Shown: positions 8,309-61,171 of the stretch, piece after piece
Layout: each line of letters starts with the position of its first letter
How positions within the stretch are numbered: the first letter of the stretch is position 1
Translations under genes and position numbers: made by a program
Assembly: GCA_017987895.1 (NCBI GenBank)
Contig: JAGNSU010000009.1
Location: 1 to 64,000, forward strand
Direction of reading: 5' to 3'
DNA length: 64,000 nucleotides
From: Flavobacteriales bacterium
GTDB taxonomy: Bacteria > Bacteroidota > Bacteroidia > Flavobacteriales_F > PHOS-HE28
The notes under the pieces: model-generated
Told to the model about the DNA's origin: nothing
The model's database searches: none
Seen by the model: the letters and a program-made list of their open reading frames with translations, nothing else

Positions 8309-8902
8309 TCATGGATCATACTCCAGGATGCAGCCCACTGCGGTCACTTCATTCTCCACCGGTCGTTCGCCGCGCAGCACGGCATCGAGCGCATCGTTGA
8401 GATAGTGTCGCGTGGCTTGGATGCGCTTTTGTCCGGCACGCACCGCGCGATCGTCGATCGCCCCGCTATACACCAACCGGCCTTCGCCATCGAGCACAAA
8501 GACCTCCGGCGTCACGCGCGCGCCGAGCGCCTTGCACAGCACGAACTCCGGATCCATGATCCCATCGAACGCGGCCGGGCTCGCACCCATGAACTTCACC
8601 GCACTATCACGCGGGATGTATGGCGAGGCGAAGACACCGACAAAGCGAACCGCCCCGTATGCGGGCAATGCCACCAGGCTGTCCAACAGAGGTAGGTACA
8701 TCTGGCAGAAAGGACATTCGGGATCGAGCGTGATGAGGACCGTGGCCTTCGAGCCAAGCGGGTCCTTCAACAGGCCAGAACCGGTGCGCACGGGATCGAA
8801 CGTCCTTCCGGACAATTCCTGCAAGGGCTTGTCAGGAACGGAGCATGCGCTCGCCAGCCACATGACAAGGATCGGAAGAAATAGGGATCGCGAGCGCACC
8901 AC
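8309..8902 (-). CDS. Thioredoxin-like (redoxin) lipoprotein
   Basis: About 197 residues starting at GTG 8902 (or the adjacent GTG 8899). A TACATTCG promoter element ends four bases upstream, which argues against the longer frame. The signal peptide ends in the lipobox LASAC (C20). A thioredoxin-fold domain follows with the motif CPFC, then a cis-Pro-like VTPEVFVLD strand. It resembles AhpC/TSA-type redoxin domains of Bacteroidota and Planctomycetota. The next gene carries cytochrome c and copper monooxygenase domains; I infer the pair forms one redox unit, since related proteins in other phyla can combine redoxin, cytochrome and PHM-like parts in one chain. Confidence 0.82.
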   Translation of the reverse strand: MVRSRSLFLPILVMWLASACSVPDKPLQELSGRTFDPVRTGSGLLKDPLGSKATVLITLDPECPFCQMYLPLLDSLVALPAYGAVRFVGVFASPYIPRDSAVKFMGASPAAFDGIMDPEFVLCKALGARVTPEVFVLDGEGRLVYSGAIDDRAVRAGQKRIQATRHYLNDALDAVLRGERPVENEVTAVGCILEYDP

Positions 8903-57109: not shown

Positions 57110-58093
57110 TCAATTGAAGCCCACCAGGGCTATGCCCGCGTTCACCGGGATCAATTCGGGGCCGGTGCCCTCCTCGAAGAGCGGGGTAAGGCTGTACTCC
57201 GCGAAGAGGTTGAGCCCCCCCCAGCCGATCTGGGCGCGCGCCGCCAGGCGGTACTTCAGCAGGTTGAAGTCGCCCTTGCTGCGGTCCTTTTCGGTCTCGC
57301 CTTCCACGCGGTACTTCACCTTGTACATGGTGTCGAAGTACCAGCTGCCCACCACGCCGACGGCGACATGGAAGTTGTTCTTTCGCGAGAAGTCGTTGCC
57401 CTTCCAACTGCCATCGCGCAGTTGTGCCTCGGTCGGCAGCGGCGCCCGCTTGGTGTTGAACTCCAGCATCAGCGGAACACGCAGGCCGATCTCGCGCAAT
57501 TTGTTCTTGCGGTACTCGGGCGAGATCACTTGCACACCGAAGACGGAATCGTTGTTGTAGGCGAGCTGCACATTGTTGCTCAACCTGTAGTTCACGAACT
57601 CCAGACCCAGGCCCGTGAACAAGCCCACGTGGTGGCTGCCGAAGTCGATCTTCTGTTCCCACACGTTCAGCGCGAAGAAGCGGGAGTTCGCATCCTCCAG
57701 TGCCATGAACTCGGCCTCCTGCGGTAGGTCGAAGCCTCCATTGGGGCTCATGTAGTTGTTCAGCCCGAGCTCCACCCCGGTCCAGTAGGTGAAGGTGCTG
57801 CGACGGTCCCTGCGCGCTTGTTTAAGCCGCTCCTTGATGCTGCTGGCGGTGGTGTCGCCCTCCTTGTCCTCGGTAAGGATGGTGATCACCTTGTGCTTTA
57901 GCTGAAAAGTGAGCGTGTCGCGCTTGCGCCCATCGGCATCGGGCTTATCGCCCGACACTTCGGCGTAGACACCTTTCTTGCTGTTGATGCCAAGTTCCAG
58001 CTTATGTTGTTGTTCGGTCCCGGTGGTATCCTCCTGCGCCTGGACGGTAAGGCCGAGGGTCAACGCGGTGATCAAGGGGATCAAGGTTCTCAT
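57110..58093 (-). CDS. Outer membrane beta-barrel protein of the ECF regulon
   Basis: 327 residues, signal peptide MRTLIPLITALTLGLTVQAQ. A charged N-terminal region (KHKVITILTEDKEGDTTASSIKERLKQARRDRRSTF) precedes a barrel-like part with alternating strands (FTYWTGVELGLNNYMSP; HHVGLFTGLGLEFVNYRL; NNFHVAVGVVGSWYFDTMYKVKYRV; GWGGLNLFAEYSLTPLF), resembling PorT/OmpW-type barrels of Bacteroidota. Its promoter carries the TGTAACT/CGTCCTA motif shared with the ECF sigma gene and the TonB-C-like gene, so it is probably induced by envelope stress. Confidence 0.8.
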   Translation of the reverse strand: MRTLIPLITALTLGLTVQAQEDTTGTEQQHKLELGINSKKGVYAEVSGDKPDADGRKRDTLTFQLKHKVITILTEDKEGDTTASSIKERLKQARRDRRSTFTYWTGVELGLNNYMSPNGGFDLPQEAEFMALEDANSRFFALNVWEQKIDFGSHHVGLFTGLGLEFVNYRLSNNVQLAYNNDSVFGVQVISPEYRKNKLREIGLRVPLMLEFNTKRAPLPTEAQLRDGSWKGNDFSRKNNFHVAVGVVGSWYFDTMYKVKYRVEGETEKDRSKGDFNLLKYRLAARAQIGWGGLNLFAEYSLTPLFEEGTGPELIPVNAGIALVGFN

Positions 58094-58112
58094 GGTCGTT
58101 CGGTTCTATGGG

Positions 58113-58141
58113 TAGGACGGTCTGCTCGTTCGGGAGTTACA
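58113..58141 (-). promoter_or_regulatory. ECF-type promoter of the barrel protein gene
   Basis: TGTAACT (58141-58135), 15-bp spacer, CGTCCTA (58119-58113), 19 bases before ATG 58093. The same two boxes occur upstream of the genes starting at 59037 and 61118. Confidence 0.75.
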
Positions 58142-58417
58142 GGGGGTGTGAAAATTCATCCGAGGGAATGCCATCCGCACTGCTTCGCCAAGCCTCGCAG
58201 GGACCGTCGCGGATGACGCAGATGGAATGACCGTAGCGACGCGAACGCTCGGAAGAATGCCATCCGCAGATGGCGCGGATGCACACCGCTGCGATCGAGA
58301 TGAACAGAGGGGCCTCACACGGAGGCGCGGAGAATGCAGGTTCATTCGCTGATGTCCGTGCAAGGACATGTCCGCATGGGCGCACAAGATCCCGATACGG
58401 ACCACGCAGAACGGAAA

Positions 58418-58435
58418 GCGCCCCTTGCGGGGCGC
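58418..58435. terminator. GC-rich hairpin with T-rich flank
   Basis: GCGCCCC, loop TTGC, GGGGCGC, then CTTTCC on the plus strand and CTTTCCG on the minus strand. No plus-strand gene precedes it, so a role for the minus-strand TonB-C-like gene is more likely, though the stop is 230 bp away. Confidence 0.4.
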
Positions 58436-58465
58436 CTTTCCTCTGGTGGAGGTCCGAAGAGGGTC

Positions 58466-58664
58466 AGAGCTTATCTCAAGATCGCTTTTTGGAAGCGAGC
58501 GGGAGGTATTTCGCGATCAGGCGAGGCGCCGGAACCGAGCATAGTCGGTCTCCTACGCGCCATAGCCGCTTCGGCGACGGAGCGGTACTCTGTGAGGTTC
58601 CGGCAACGAAGCATGAGCGTGAAAGATCCTCGCGTAGCCCGAAGGCGCTCTTGAGATACGCTCT
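58466..58664 (+). repeat. Dispersed structured repeat, divergent copy 3 (199 bp)
   Basis: The ends AGAGCTTATCTCAAGATCGC and GCGCTCTTGAGATACGCTCT are inverted with two mismatches. The inner stem is GCCGGAACC/GGTTCCGGC. It shares GATCAGG, GCCGGAA and GAAGCATGAGCG with copy 1 in the same order, but is 50 bp longer and has a different apex. It ends within the stop codon region of the TonB-C-like gene. Confidence 0.6.
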
Positions 58665-59037
58665 AGGCTTTCTCCGGACGGAAGACAAAGCGCACGTGGC
58701 TGGTCCTCCAGATGCCATCGGGGTTCTCACCGATATCGATCTTGGCGAGCTTGCCGAGCACGTACTGGCGCAGGGGCTCGTTCTGGCTGAAGCTCTCCAG
58801 CACTTCCAGGCGGCCTTCCTTGTTCACTACGAAGCTCACGAACACTTCGCCGGTCATGTTGTGCTCACGCTCCAGCAGGGGGAACACAACGTGCTTGTTA
58901 AGGGCTTGCTCCACAGCGCGCTCCAGGGCGTCGGTGTTGCGGGTGGGGATGCGTACAGGTTCGGCGGCGCGGGTGTACCCGAAGGTGAACACGGTGGCGA
59001 GCAGAAGCAGGGCGGTCTTGGCGATGCGGGTTCTCAT
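58663..59037 (-). CDS. Periplasmic TonB-C-like protein of the ECF regulon
   Basis: 124 residues from ATG 59037 (signal peptide MRTRIAKTALLLLATVFTFGYTRA). The body NKHVVFPLLEREHNMTGEVFVSFVVNKEGRLEVLESFSQNEPLRQYVLGKLAKIDI resembles the C-terminal domain of TonB energy transducers, but without a membrane anchor or Pro-rich spacer. Likely a free periplasmic TonB_C-fold protein. It has its own TGTAACT/CGTCCTA promoter. Confidence 0.75.
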   Translation of the reverse strand: MRTRIAKTALLLLATVFTFGYTRAAEPVRIPTRNTDALERAVEQALNKHVVFPLLEREHNMTGEVFVSFVVNKEGRLEVLESFSQNEPLRQYVLGKLAKIDIGENPDGIWRTSHVRFVFRPEKA

Positions 59038-59063
59038 GGTGTCTGGTGTTTGGTATTCGGCCA

Positions 59064-59093
59064 TAGGACGGCCTGTGCGCGGCGGTAGTTACA
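59064..59093 (-). promoter_or_regulatory. ECF-type promoter of the TonB-C-like gene
   Basis: TGTAACT (59093-59087), 16-bp spacer, CGTCCTA (59070-59064), 26 bases before ATG 59037. Confidence 0.75.
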
Positions 59094-59172
59094 GATGCAA
59101 CGTGCCTTCGTGATGAGCGGCTACGCATCTGGGATGAGCGGTATGAAATGGGAGAGCAGCATTGCTTCCGCG

Positions 59173-59280
59173 ATGCCGGGTCGAGCCCGGCATGACATGT
59201 TGCACTAACGGGCTGGGATCCGCGCTTCACGCGGATCCCAGCCCGTTCCCGCAGTTGTCACCCCGGCCTTGAGCCGGGGT
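59173..59280. repeat. Three consecutive hairpins in the gap after the anti-sigma gene
   Basis: ATGCCGGG/CCCGGCAT (59173-59193); a perfect 16-bp stem CGGGCTGGGATCCGCG/CGCGGATCCCAGCCCG with loop CTTCA (59209-59245); and ACCCCGGC/GCCGGGGT (59260-59280). The last two lie just past the minus-strand stop at 59293 and can terminate the sigma/anti-sigma operon. Confidence 0.7.
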
Positions 59281-59292
59281 CGCGAAAATCCC

Positions 59293-60636
59293 TTACCGGC
59301 TGGCCGTAATGCCCATGCCATTGCCCAGACGCAGGTCGAAGCGCTTCAGGCGGTGGCCATCGCGCTGTACCGCGAGGCCGGCATCGTTGCCGCCCAGCCG
59401 CTTCAGGCCCTTGTCCACGGCGGCCACGGCATCGGCCTCTTGGAAGCCATGGGCATCCGGAGCGCTCTGGTCCAACACGGCGCCGCGGACGCGCTGCGCC
59501 AACATGCCACCGAGCGTAGGTACCTCTTTGGCTGGCGCGGCGGCAAGGAACTCATCCGGCGGCGGGATGGCAGCGGGGGTCTGCTCTTCCACCTGTACCG
59601 GAGTGGCGTTCACTGCGTCCGGTGTCCCCTGGGCGGGTTCCAGGTGGGCCAGGGATGGGCTCGCCTCACGCAGGCTCTGCTGAGGTGCCGGTGCGACGGG
59701 TTCCTCCCGTTGCGTAGGAACACTCTCATGGGCCGGGCGCTCCACCGAAGGAGAAGGTGCCTGCGGTTGTGCTAGCACTGGCTCCTTCTCTTCAACGCGT
59801 TCCTGCACCCCGACTTCCGGGGTCTTCGCCTCAGGTATCGTCCCCTGCACTTCGGCCACCTGTCGCACCTCGCCAGAGCCGGCTTCGGCGACGGCGCGTG
59901 GCTCCTGCTGGGGCTCGCGCATCAGCGACCAAATGCCCAAGCCCAACAACAAGGCGATGCTCGCCGCAGCGGCCAAACGCACCACGGTGGTGCGGCTCCA
60001 CAAGCCGATCACCTTGCCTTCGCGCTTTCGAAGCCCTGCCTTGTGCGCATACACTTCGCCGCCAGCCATCACTTTAGTGGCCGCGATCAAGCTCCGTTCG
60101 CGCGCGAGTTCCGGATGGTCCTTTATGTAGGCCCCGAGCGCGGCCTGCTGCGCAGGGCTCAGATCCCCTTCCAGTTCGGCGATCAGAAAGTCGTGCAGCC
60201 GGTGGCGGTCGGGTACCCCGCTGGGCGGGAAGGTGCGCAGCAGCGCATCGCGTTCCATCGAGAACCCGGGGCCAGCGACCGCGCGGGCCAATTCCATCAG
60301 GCGCGCATCGCGCTGCGCCTCCGGATGCTCGTAGAGATAACGTTGCAGCTCGCGCACTTGATCCGCGCTCAGGTCACCTTCGCCATGCGCTACTAGAAAG
60401 TCGTTCAAGCGGTCCGCATCGGGCTGGCCACGTGGCGGCAGTTCCCGGTGCAAGGCTTCCTTCCCGGCGAACCGGATCGCATCACCACCCAGATCCAAAG
60501 CCTCCCCGGAACCGAACGCGGGCAGGTCCGGGTTGGCCGCCAAAAAAGCGTCCAATGCCTGCACACCGGCGGGCGTGAGCCGACCCTCGATGCGGTCGAG
60601 CAGCCAGGCTTCGTAGGTATCGCGGTCCAGGTTCAA
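59293..60636 (-). CDS. Membrane anti-sigma factor with three N-terminal repeats
   Basis: 447 residues. Three related ~45-residue helical units begin at about residues 4, 72 and 141 (YEAWLLDRIEGRLTPAGVQAL; LNDFLVAHGEGDLSADQVREL; LHDFLIAELEGDLSPAQQAAL), each ending in a (N/H)P(D/E) pattern. One membrane helix (RLAAAASIALLLGLGIWSLM, ~218-237) is followed by a long Pro/Glu-rich periplasmic stretch and a C-terminal basic end. The start overlaps the ECF sigma stop by 4 bp, so it is the cognate anti-sigma factor: repeats bind sigma in the cytoplasm, the tail senses the envelope. The fold of the repeats is not a recognised anti-sigma domain. Confidence 0.78.
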   Translation of the reverse strand: MNLDRDTYEAWLLDRIEGRLTPAGVQALDAFLAANPDLPAFGSGEALDLGGDAIRFAGKEALHRELPPRGQPDADRLNDFLVAHGEGDLSADQVRELQRYLYEHPEAQRDARLMELARAVAGPGFSMERDALLRTFPPSGVPDRHRLHDFLIAELEGDLSPAQQAALGAYIKDHPELARERSLIAATKVMAGGEVYAHKAGLRKREGKVIGLWSRTTVVRLAAAASIALLLGLGIWSLMREPQQEPRAVAEAGSGEVRQVAEVQGTIPEAKTPEVGVQERVEEKEPVLAQPQAPSPSVERPAHESVPTQREEPVAPAPQQSLREASPSLAHLEPAQGTPDAVNATPVQVEEQTPAAIPPPDEFLAAAPAKEVPTLGGMLAQRVRGAVLDQSAPDAHGFQEADAVAAVDKGLKRLGGNDAGLAVQRDGHRLKRFDLRLGNGMGITASR

Positions 60637-61118
60637 AGCACGAGTTCCAGTTTGCCGATGTATTCCTTCAAAGCGGTGCGCCCCCGGTAGATGTACACTT
60701 TCACTTGCGTCACGTTCAGGCCGGTGAGCTCGGCGATCTCCTCGTAGCTGTACCCCTCCAGGTCGCGCAAAAGCACCACGCTGCGTTGCACTTCAGGCAG
60801 TTGCGCCAGGCCGGCATCGAGCACCTTTTGCAGGTCGGGCTGTGATTGGCTGCTCCATTGCAGGTCCTCGTGGTGCTCTTCCATCCGGGTGCTGCGCGAG
60901 CCCTTGCGCACCTCGTCCACCATAATGTGGTGCGCGGTGGTGAACAGGTAGCTCTTGGCTTTGGCGGTTTCCACGTCTTCCACTTTCACCCAAAGGCGGG
61001 CGTATGTTTCCTGCACTACGTCCTTCGCCAGATCACGGTCGCGCAAGTGCTTCACGGCGAAGCGGAAGATCCCATCGGAGTGGGCGTCCACAGCGGCGTT
61101 ATAGTCGGCGAGCGTCAT
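60633..61118 (-). CDS. ECF-type RNA polymerase sigma factor, autoregulated
   Basis: 161 residues. Region 2: YNAAVDAHSDGIFRFAVKHLRDRDLAKDVVQETYARLWVKV. Region 4: LAQLPEVQRSVVLLRDLEGYSYEEIAELTGLNVTQVKVYIYRGRTALKEYI. Compact, no extra domain. Its own upstream region contains the TGTAACT-N15-CGTCCCA promoter also present before two neighbouring envelope genes, which points to autoregulation. It is translationally coupled to the anti-sigma factor. Confidence 0.93.
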   Translation of the reverse strand: MTLADYNAAVDAHSDGIFRFAVKHLRDRDLAKDVVQETYARLWVKVEDVETAKAKSYLFTTAHHIMVDEVRKGSRSTRMEEHHEDLQWSSQSQPDLQKVLDAGLAQLPEVQRSVVLLRDLEGYSYEEIAELTGLNVTQVKVYIYRGRTALKEYIGKLELVL

Positions 61119-61142
61119 CGGAGGAAGGGGGCCTCTTGTGCG

Positions 61143-61171
61143 TGGGACGGGCGGCTTGGGGGAAAGTTACA
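61143..61171 (-). promoter_or_regulatory. ECF-type promoter of the sigma/anti-sigma operon
   Basis: TGTAACT (61171-61165), 15-bp spacer, CGTCCCA (61149-61143), 24 bases before ATG 61118. Confidence 0.75.

Follow-up and report, generated by a model that had tools for sequence, protein, structure and literature searches.

On the minus strand of the 64,000-nucleotide stretch analysed here (the window, within which all features below lie on that strand), the genes for an ECF sigma factor, a putative membrane anti-sigma factor and two envelope proteins are preceded by the same two-box motif. The arrangement is best explained, with a probability of about 0.83, as an ECF sigma/membrane anti-sigma circuit that drives TGTAAC-N16/17-CGTCNYA promoters. 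A first-pass annotation of this DNA had proposed a shared ECF-type promoter, autoregulation of the sigma factor and two envelope targets; comparative genomics supports each of these, and the annotation's reading as a whole holds in part.

Predicted promoter sites across genome, genus and phylum

The motif TGTAACT-N15/16-CGTCCYA has three exact matches in the window. The site before the sigma/anti-sigma operon, which is predicted to be autoregulatory (61143..61171, TGTAACT-N15-CGTCCCA), ends 24 nt from the start codon (61143 to 61118), the predicted promoter of a TonB-C-like gene (59064..59093, TGTAACT-N16-CGTCCTA) ends 26 nt from its ATG (59064 to 59037), and that of an outer-membrane barrel gene (58113..58141, TGTAACT-N15-CGTCCTA) ends 19 nt from its ATG (58113 to 58093). 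Positions, spacers (15, 16 and 15 bp) and the distance of about 19-26 nt to the ATG all agree with what had been reported from the first reading, and 100 dinucleotide shuffles of the window gave no match. A genome-wide search, which the first-pass annotation had suggested as a check, returned only four matches to TGTAAC-N16/17-CGTCNYA in the organism's own genome (4.1 Mb, 92% complete), each upstream of a gene: the three window sites and a fourth lying 22 nt upstream of an unlinked lipoprotein gene.

The comparison of upstream regions in relatives that it had likewise suggested shows the site recurring before the same genes, namely in 20/20 genus loci for the sigma factor, 18/19 for the barrel and 11/19 for the TonB-C-like gene. 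In the TonB-C sites the spacer after TGTAAC is 17 in 11/11, and the TonB-C loci that lack a site form one clade, except for L067, which has a near match. Across the consensus the TGTAAC and CGT boxes are near-invariant. Among 39 genus genomes, the true spacing N16/17 yields about 150 matches (added up from the table), as against 8 for N21/22, 7 for N11/12 and about 55 for the pattern read backwards. Outside the genus, a site lies within 120 nt of the sigma gene in 57 of 72 loci, with none in 100 shuffles; additionally, a barrel homologue adjoins the sigma gene in 40 of 61 loci, and 25 of these 40 adjacent homologues carry a site of their own. Cultured Bacteroidota strains that have the locus include Mariniphaga sediminis (L273) and Carboxylicivirga linearis (L274). 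Because the site is conserved within the genus, depends on spacing and recurs at this proportion of distant loci, comparative genomics points to an ECF circuit that regulates itself and is kept throughout Bacteroidota. A CGT -10 box is likewise found in the SM6 promoters of Flavobacterium psychrophilum, where mapped starts include one before an ECF/anti-sigma pair, although the reported SM6 targets are T9SS and other genes (PMC9723704). A literature search on the promoter motif string found no papers.

The sigma factor and its putative anti-sigma factor

The sigma factor (60633..61118, 161 aa) consists of regions 2 and 4 with region 3 missing, the arrangement of ECF (group 4) factors, and scores above the curated cutoffs of PF04542 (8.6e-13; 48.3 bits against 24), PF08281 (3.3e-18; 65.5 against 25.7) and TIGR02937 (75.9 against 42.9). 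The autoregulated two-box promoter that is a further ECF trait is indicated through conservation only. In the region predicted to read the -35 box, QVKVY...R.R is invariant. Seven genus paralogues (41-54% identity) have neither the site nor the repeat anti-sigma. The top-scoring curated NCBIfam model is NF058625 (GFO_1088/PG0214 family), which matches 13/13 members of the sigma alignment; at 116 bits against a cutoff of 130, the window sigma is not assigned to that family. A Porphyromonas gingivalis member, PGN_0319 (W83 number PG0214), has been knocked out (PMC4324044); the literature examined held no description of its promoter or regulon, and a search on GFO_1088 found no papers.

The gene for the putative membrane anti-sigma factor (59293..60636, 447 aa, start codon TTG) overlaps the 3' end of the preceding sigma gene by 4 nt, and across loci the two genes overlap or abut. 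The protein carries three HMM-defined modules of about 60 aa, at residues 5-64 (60445..60624), 74-134 (60235..60417) and 144-204 (60025..60207). Module 1 is helical in the AF2 model, and modules 2 (helices 77-85, 91-103, 105-117 and 129-132) and 3 (helices 144-155, 161-173, 177-187 and 199-202) each form three helices plus a short fourth, with pLDDT >90 for most helices, as in the class I fold. The repeats described in the first-pass annotation are real, in that an HMM built from first modules alone recovers window modules 2 and 3 (i-E 2e-7 and 2e-9). They are not, however, unusual as had been supposed: the type is common in the phylum, with 1-4 copies of the module among 106 homologues and 2 the commonest number.

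Beyond the modules, a K/R-rich segment precedes a single transmembrane helix at residues 215-239 (59920..59994; an AF2 helix and hydropathy peak). There follow an unconserved Pro/Glu-rich periplasmic linker at residues 240-373 (59518..59919), with column conservation of 26-40% over residues 241 to 380, and a conserved C-terminal periplasmic domain at residues 374-447 (59296..59517), composed of helices and then three beta strands (conservation 52-70%; AF2 pLDDT about 80 over residues 405-447). The long Pro/Glu-rich tail of the earlier description is present (across the entire periplasmic part, P makes up 12% and E 11%), but it is not terminal and instead links to this conserved domain. Searches of the PDB gave no fold match for the C-terminal domain and nothing useful by sequence for the anti-sigma profile.

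The 447-aa protein falls under no Pfam or NCBIfam family, and the best PDB fold match of the modules, RsiW bound to SigW, is not significant (E 2.6). Matches to zf-HC2 are found in 13 of 36 aligned homologues (best 0.0016) and not in the window protein; one orthologue reaches the zf-HC2 cutoff when in-frame neighbours are counted, others fall just below it, and homologues also match DUF4880. The module resembles a class I anti-sigma domain that lacks zinc. It shares the three-helix bundle and short fourth helix of that domain (RsiW, ChrR and RskA type; zf-HC2), but differs from it in lacking zinc ligands, in its tandem arrangement and in having no Pfam match.

The closest known design is that of the dual membrane-spanning anti-sigma factors (Dma) that act with ECF21 sigmas in Bacteroides thetaiotaomicron (PMC13088901). 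Shared features are an N-terminal anti-sigma region, one transmembrane helix, a long tether and a terminal folded domain, as well as a Bacteroidota ECF partner and an outer-membrane theme, whereas the window protein has three tandem modules and its barrel is encoded by a separate co-regulated gene. It is not itself a Dma protein, since the defining C-terminal beta-barrel is missing and a domain of about 75 residues with three strands, matching no barrel family, stands in its place. L076, a relative with a single module, is a fusion with a PorP/SprF barrel (PF11751, 5e-30), as in Dma. The "undescribed sensing design" of the first-pass annotation thus stands as to the missing family model, but not as to novelty of type, the repeats being common and class I-like and the layout recalling Dma. 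FecR-type cell-surface signalling was rejected, as there is no FecR match and the neighbours are the TonB-C-like protein and the barrel.

Predicted envelope targets and extent of the regulon

The TonB-C-like gene (58663..59037) encodes a 124-aa protein predicted to be exported, with a signal peptide in its sequence and a PF03544 match (E 0.006) below the cutoff; its start is placed at 59037 rather than at the ORF start 59064, which overlaps the -10 box. The 327-aa outer-membrane beta-barrel protein (57110..58093) shares 32% identity (E 3e-38) with the barrel half of L251, a protein with DUF2807 and OMP_b-brl_2 domains. At distant loci the gene that follows the anti-sigma gene and bears the site encodes the same barrel, sometimes with DUF2807 in front as in the head-GIN proteins of Bacteroidota, a domain that the window barrel lacks; a literature search on GIN with sigma factor found no papers. 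A second barrel, barrel-2, was rejected as a core regulon member, having the site in few of 21 loci. In some relatives, M61 peptidases and other envelope proteins have a site upstream. A site before a TonB-dependent receptor (G000:C83:15037), which ends in CGTCCGA and lies near another ECF, is not assigned to a sigma factor.

That the regulon is self-contained, as first claimed, is not supported: the unlinked lipoprotein gene, which encodes an HMA domain (G000:C119:7766-8305, site at 8328-8357), has a site that is also present in 23 of 28 orthologues. The genus has a second ECF whose consensus, [CT]GTAACC-N-CGTCCCA, overlaps with this one; upstream of it, boxes of the same kind, with GTAACC and a spacer of 17, lie in 14/30 loci (<=1 mismatch). 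The consensus therefore does not tie a site to one sigma factor only, least of all at the HMA gene, where most sites have GCGTC instead of CCGTC. The HMA lipoprotein is nonetheless probably a target of the window sigma, to judge from the distribution of sites. Ownership of its site by the second ECF is less likely because no orthologue of that factor is present in the organism's own genome; HMA sites are also kept in other genomes that lack it (G013, G020, G043), and in the clade lacking the TonB-C site 4/4 genomes tested have no HMA site though 4/4 have the second ECF.

Proposed circuit and alternative readings

In the preferred reading, the window sigma would direct RNA polymerase to TGTAAC-N16/17-CGTCNYA promoters and so drive its own operon, with the anti-sigma factor and the co-conserved barrel and, in this lineage, also the TonB-C-like protein and probably the HMA lipoprotein. 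The anti-sigma factor would retain sigma at the inner membrane through its tandem cytoplasmic modules, while its transmembrane helix, flexible linker and C-terminal beta-rich domain may monitor the periplasm or the outer membrane; a signal from the envelope would then free sigma and amplify sigma, inhibitor and envelope targets.

Another ECF sharing the GTAAC/CGTC consensus might instead be responsible, in part or in full, for reading these promoters, as the boxes upstream of the second genus ECF suggest and as proposed for the SM6 CGT motif, which may be read by several ECFs (PMC9723704). We regard this as unlikely, since at all 20 genus sigma loci and 57/72 distant ones the site lies before this sigma type, the seven paralogous ECFs have no site, the second ECF is missing from the own genome and the extended -35 differs (TGTAACTTT versus GTAACC). 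An operator bound by a repressor or activator could also take the form of a conserved two-box element upstream of genes; however, these boxes are neither inverted nor direct repeats of each other, they are 16/17 bp apart and some 20-25 nt ahead of the start codon, they match the ECF type, and they track the ECF gene across the phylum, which makes an operator very improbable. That the three matches to a short motif, the only sites available to the first-pass annotation, arose by chance is ruled out by the shuffles, the spacing controls and the conservation of sites across the phylum.

A different doubt concerns the 447-aa protein, which might be a membrane scaffold or activator of sigma, or an inhibitor only after modification, given that no anti-sigma family model exceeds its cutoff. 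The overlapping gene, single transmembrane helix, three-helix modules with RsiW as best fold match, the zf-HC2 and DUF4880 matches of homologues, and the ASD-TM-tether-barrel layout that the one-module relative shares with Dma anti-sigmas (PMC13088901) leave little room for that idea, and we favour an anti-sigma factor. More tentatively, the circuit may embody a split dual membrane-spanning design, in which tether and C-terminal domain dock on the separate barrel, the circuit gauges barrel insertion or the state of the outer membrane, and the tandem modules (1-4 in Bacteroidota) determine how strong or how numerous the contacts with sigma are; this remains speculative.

Bacteroidota have many ECF sigma factors but few known promoters, and a recognised class I domain lies near only 6% of Bacteroidetes ECFs (PMC7406223). 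If the split design were true, it would represent a widespread anti-sigma class for which there is as yet no model and fill part of this gap in ECF control. The variable module number together with the PorP/SprF-fused relative suggests a relationship between the split and the fused membrane-spanning designs. The locus supplies a clear consensus, a target list and a module missed by existing models, and regulons of this type should therefore be predictable across the phylum and directly testable.

Promoter sites in the window, the genome and the genus

Pattern matching in the window bore out the three two-box sites (TGTAACT-N15/16-CGTCCYA) that the first-pass annotation had placed there with spacers of 15, 16 and 15 bp. 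These minus-strand candidates precede the barrel gene (58113-58141; N15, ending 19 nt before the start codon), the gene for an exported TonB-C-like protein (59064-59093; N16, 26 nt) and the sigma/anti-sigma operon (61143-61171; N15, 24 nt), and shuffled windows gave 0 matches to the pattern. The TonB-C-like gene likely starts at 59037, where a signal peptide (MRTRIAKTALLLLATVFTFGYTRAA) is predicted; the -10 box would be overlapped by a longer ORF from 59064. Two intergenic stretches, 59140-59290 and 58470-58670, contain inverted repeats spotted by eye (GGCTGGGATCCGCG...CGCGGATCCCAGCC and TATCTCAAGA...TCTTGAGATA), which are possibly terminators or dispersed intergenic elements.

Genome-wide, the looser pattern TGTAAC-N16/17-CGTCNYA occurs four times: at the three window sites and at C119:8328-8357, 22 nt upstream of a gene for an HMA-domain lipoprotein. 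Upstream regions of same-genus relatives agree, as the site recurs before orthologues of all three window genes. Among loci with enough upstream DNA, 20/20 sigma genes, 18/19 barrel genes, 11/19 TonB-C-like genes and 23/28 HMA lipoprotein genes have it, and spacer length is gene-specific and kept (counted after TGTAAC, 17 in all TonB-C-like sites and 16 in 17 of 18 barrel sites). Since the correct spacing yields approximately 150 matches over 39 genus genomes (summed from the per-genome table), as against 8 for N21/22 and 7 for N11/12, the majority of these matches probably represent genuine promoters. The eight loci that lack the TonB-C site include seven from one clade (tree support 100/98), and in that clade the HMA site is missing as well from all four genomes with a tested HMA locus, a pattern that indicates the regulon contracted once. 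At the remaining locus, L067, there is a near match that ends in CGTCCAA.

Several further sites were observed. In one relative (locus L052, genome G007), the TonB-C-like gene is tandemly duplicated, with a site or near-site before each copy. Another (L125, G015:C99) has a perfect site at the barrel gene and no sigma orthologue in a '100% complete' assembly, probably through an assembly gap, because the contig spans only 3.6 kb. M61 aminopeptidase genes of some relatives (L202-L209, L212) have a site (<=1 mismatch) 20-35 nt before their starts; this gene is absent from the source genome. Strict sites also precede genes for other exported proteins in single relatives (L319, L327, L330, L333, L342); these proteins are possible lineage-specific regulon members, and some of them are homologous to each other (two pairs, at 35% and 58% identity). 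In the source genome, a TonB-dependent-receptor-like gene whose protein likely begins MKTIAF has TGTAACAATGGGGAAGAGCTGGTCGTCCGA (C83:15037-15066, L131) 29 nt upstream of that start; a different ECF gene (C83:11496-11936) is ~3 kb away.

A second genus ECF (L323, L331, L336, L338, L340, L348-L377) is preceded in 14 of 30 loci by [CT]GTAACC-N16-CGTCCCA (<=1 mismatch), with a constant 17 bases between GTAAC and CGTC, and thus the two ECF types have a common consensus. Often a gene for a small membrane protein (motif VTAKHRQRMAMIEKGL) lies nearby and likewise has a site. The source genome has no orthologue of this ECF at E 1e-30, three other genomes without it keep the HMA sites, and four genomes that do have it lack them. 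On this distribution, the window sigma is the likelier regulator of the HMA gene.

Sites outside the genus

With the sigma alignment as query, 80 loci were fetched from Bacteroidota and two records labelled Chlorobiota. TGTAAC-N16/17-CGTNNYA was present at 57 of the 72 non-genus sigma loci with 120 nt upstream (0 in 100 shuffles). Most loci without a strict site have a visible variant, e.g. TGTAAC...TTGTCATA or TGTAAC...AGTCTTA. A window-barrel homologue lies within 4.5 kb in 40/61 non-genus loci, 25 of these 40 having their own site near the ORF start, and a DUF2807 (head GIN) domain stands in front of some distant barrel homologues. Both the site and a repeat anti-sigma are missing from seven paralogous genus ECFs that share 41-54% identity with the window sigma. 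Because these loci share some genomes with the genus set, not all of the counts are independent.

The sigma factor and its putative repeat anti-sigma

Regions 2 and 4 of the window sigma (60633-61118) are clear in a Pfam profile search, and its best curated family is NF058625 (GFO_1088/PG0214; 116 bits vs a cutoff of 130). QVKVY..R.R, the segment that reads the -35 box, does not vary across 13 aligned sigmas from six families. In F. psychrophilum, mapped starts have a CGT -10 box, one of them upstream of an ECF/anti-sigma pair (PMC9723704).

The putative anti-sigma (59293-60636) comprises three modules of ~60 aa (residues 5-64, 74-134 and 144-204; HMM and AF2 model), a single TM helix (215-239; AF2 model and hydropathy) and, after a Pro/Glu-rich stretch of low conservation, a C-terminal domain that is conserved (374-447). 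Of 106 proteins, 94 have a later module that an HMM built from first modules only can detect. By the final module HMM, whose E-values are circular because all modules went into it, there are two modules in 60 proteins, three in 42, one in 3 and four in 1. AF2 modelling from 36 sequences (mean pLDDT 84.9, pTM 0.45) gives modules 2 and 3 three helices each plus a short fourth; how the modules sit relative to one another is uncertain. The top PDB fold match of the modules, ranked first twice but at E 2.6, is RsiW complexed with SigW. A whole-genome search with the zf-HC2 model gave matches within two orthologous anti-sigmas; one of these matches attains the cutoff once neighbours in frame are added. 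Sub-threshold matches occur in 13/36 aligned homologues. With moderate confidence, the modules are assigned to a tandem, zinc-less class I type; class I domains adjoin only 6% of Bacteroidetes ECFs (PMC7406223). The C-terminal domain is modelled as helices and three strands (pLDDT ~80 over the last 40 residues), and a fold search found no PDB relatives.

The Dma anti-sigmas of B. thetaiotaomicron, partners of ECF21 sigmas, combine an anti-sigma domain, a TM helix, a disordered tether and a C-terminal beta-barrel (PMC13088901). Membership was rejected for the window protein, which lacks that barrel; whereas the Dma barrel is part of the anti-sigma, the barrel here is a separate, putatively co-regulated gene (57110-58093). 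The Dma layout is seen at L076 (G032:C44, 6665-8332, minus strand), where a one-module anti-sigma is fused to a T9SS-type PorP/SprF barrel (PF11751, 5.2e-30) and adjoins a sigma 43% identical to the window sigma.

Proposed circuit

In the best-supported mechanism, an envelope signal would free the sigma from the tandem modules, perhaps by proteolysis or a conformational change; the freed sigma would then direct transcription of its own operon, the barrel, the TonB-C-like protein and, in all probability, the unlinked HMA lipoprotein gene, and fresh anti-sigma from the sigma operon would close the loop. The signal may be metal or outer-membrane stress, as suggested only by target content, i.e. 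the HMA lipoprotein, the barrel and, in some relatives, the M61 peptidase.
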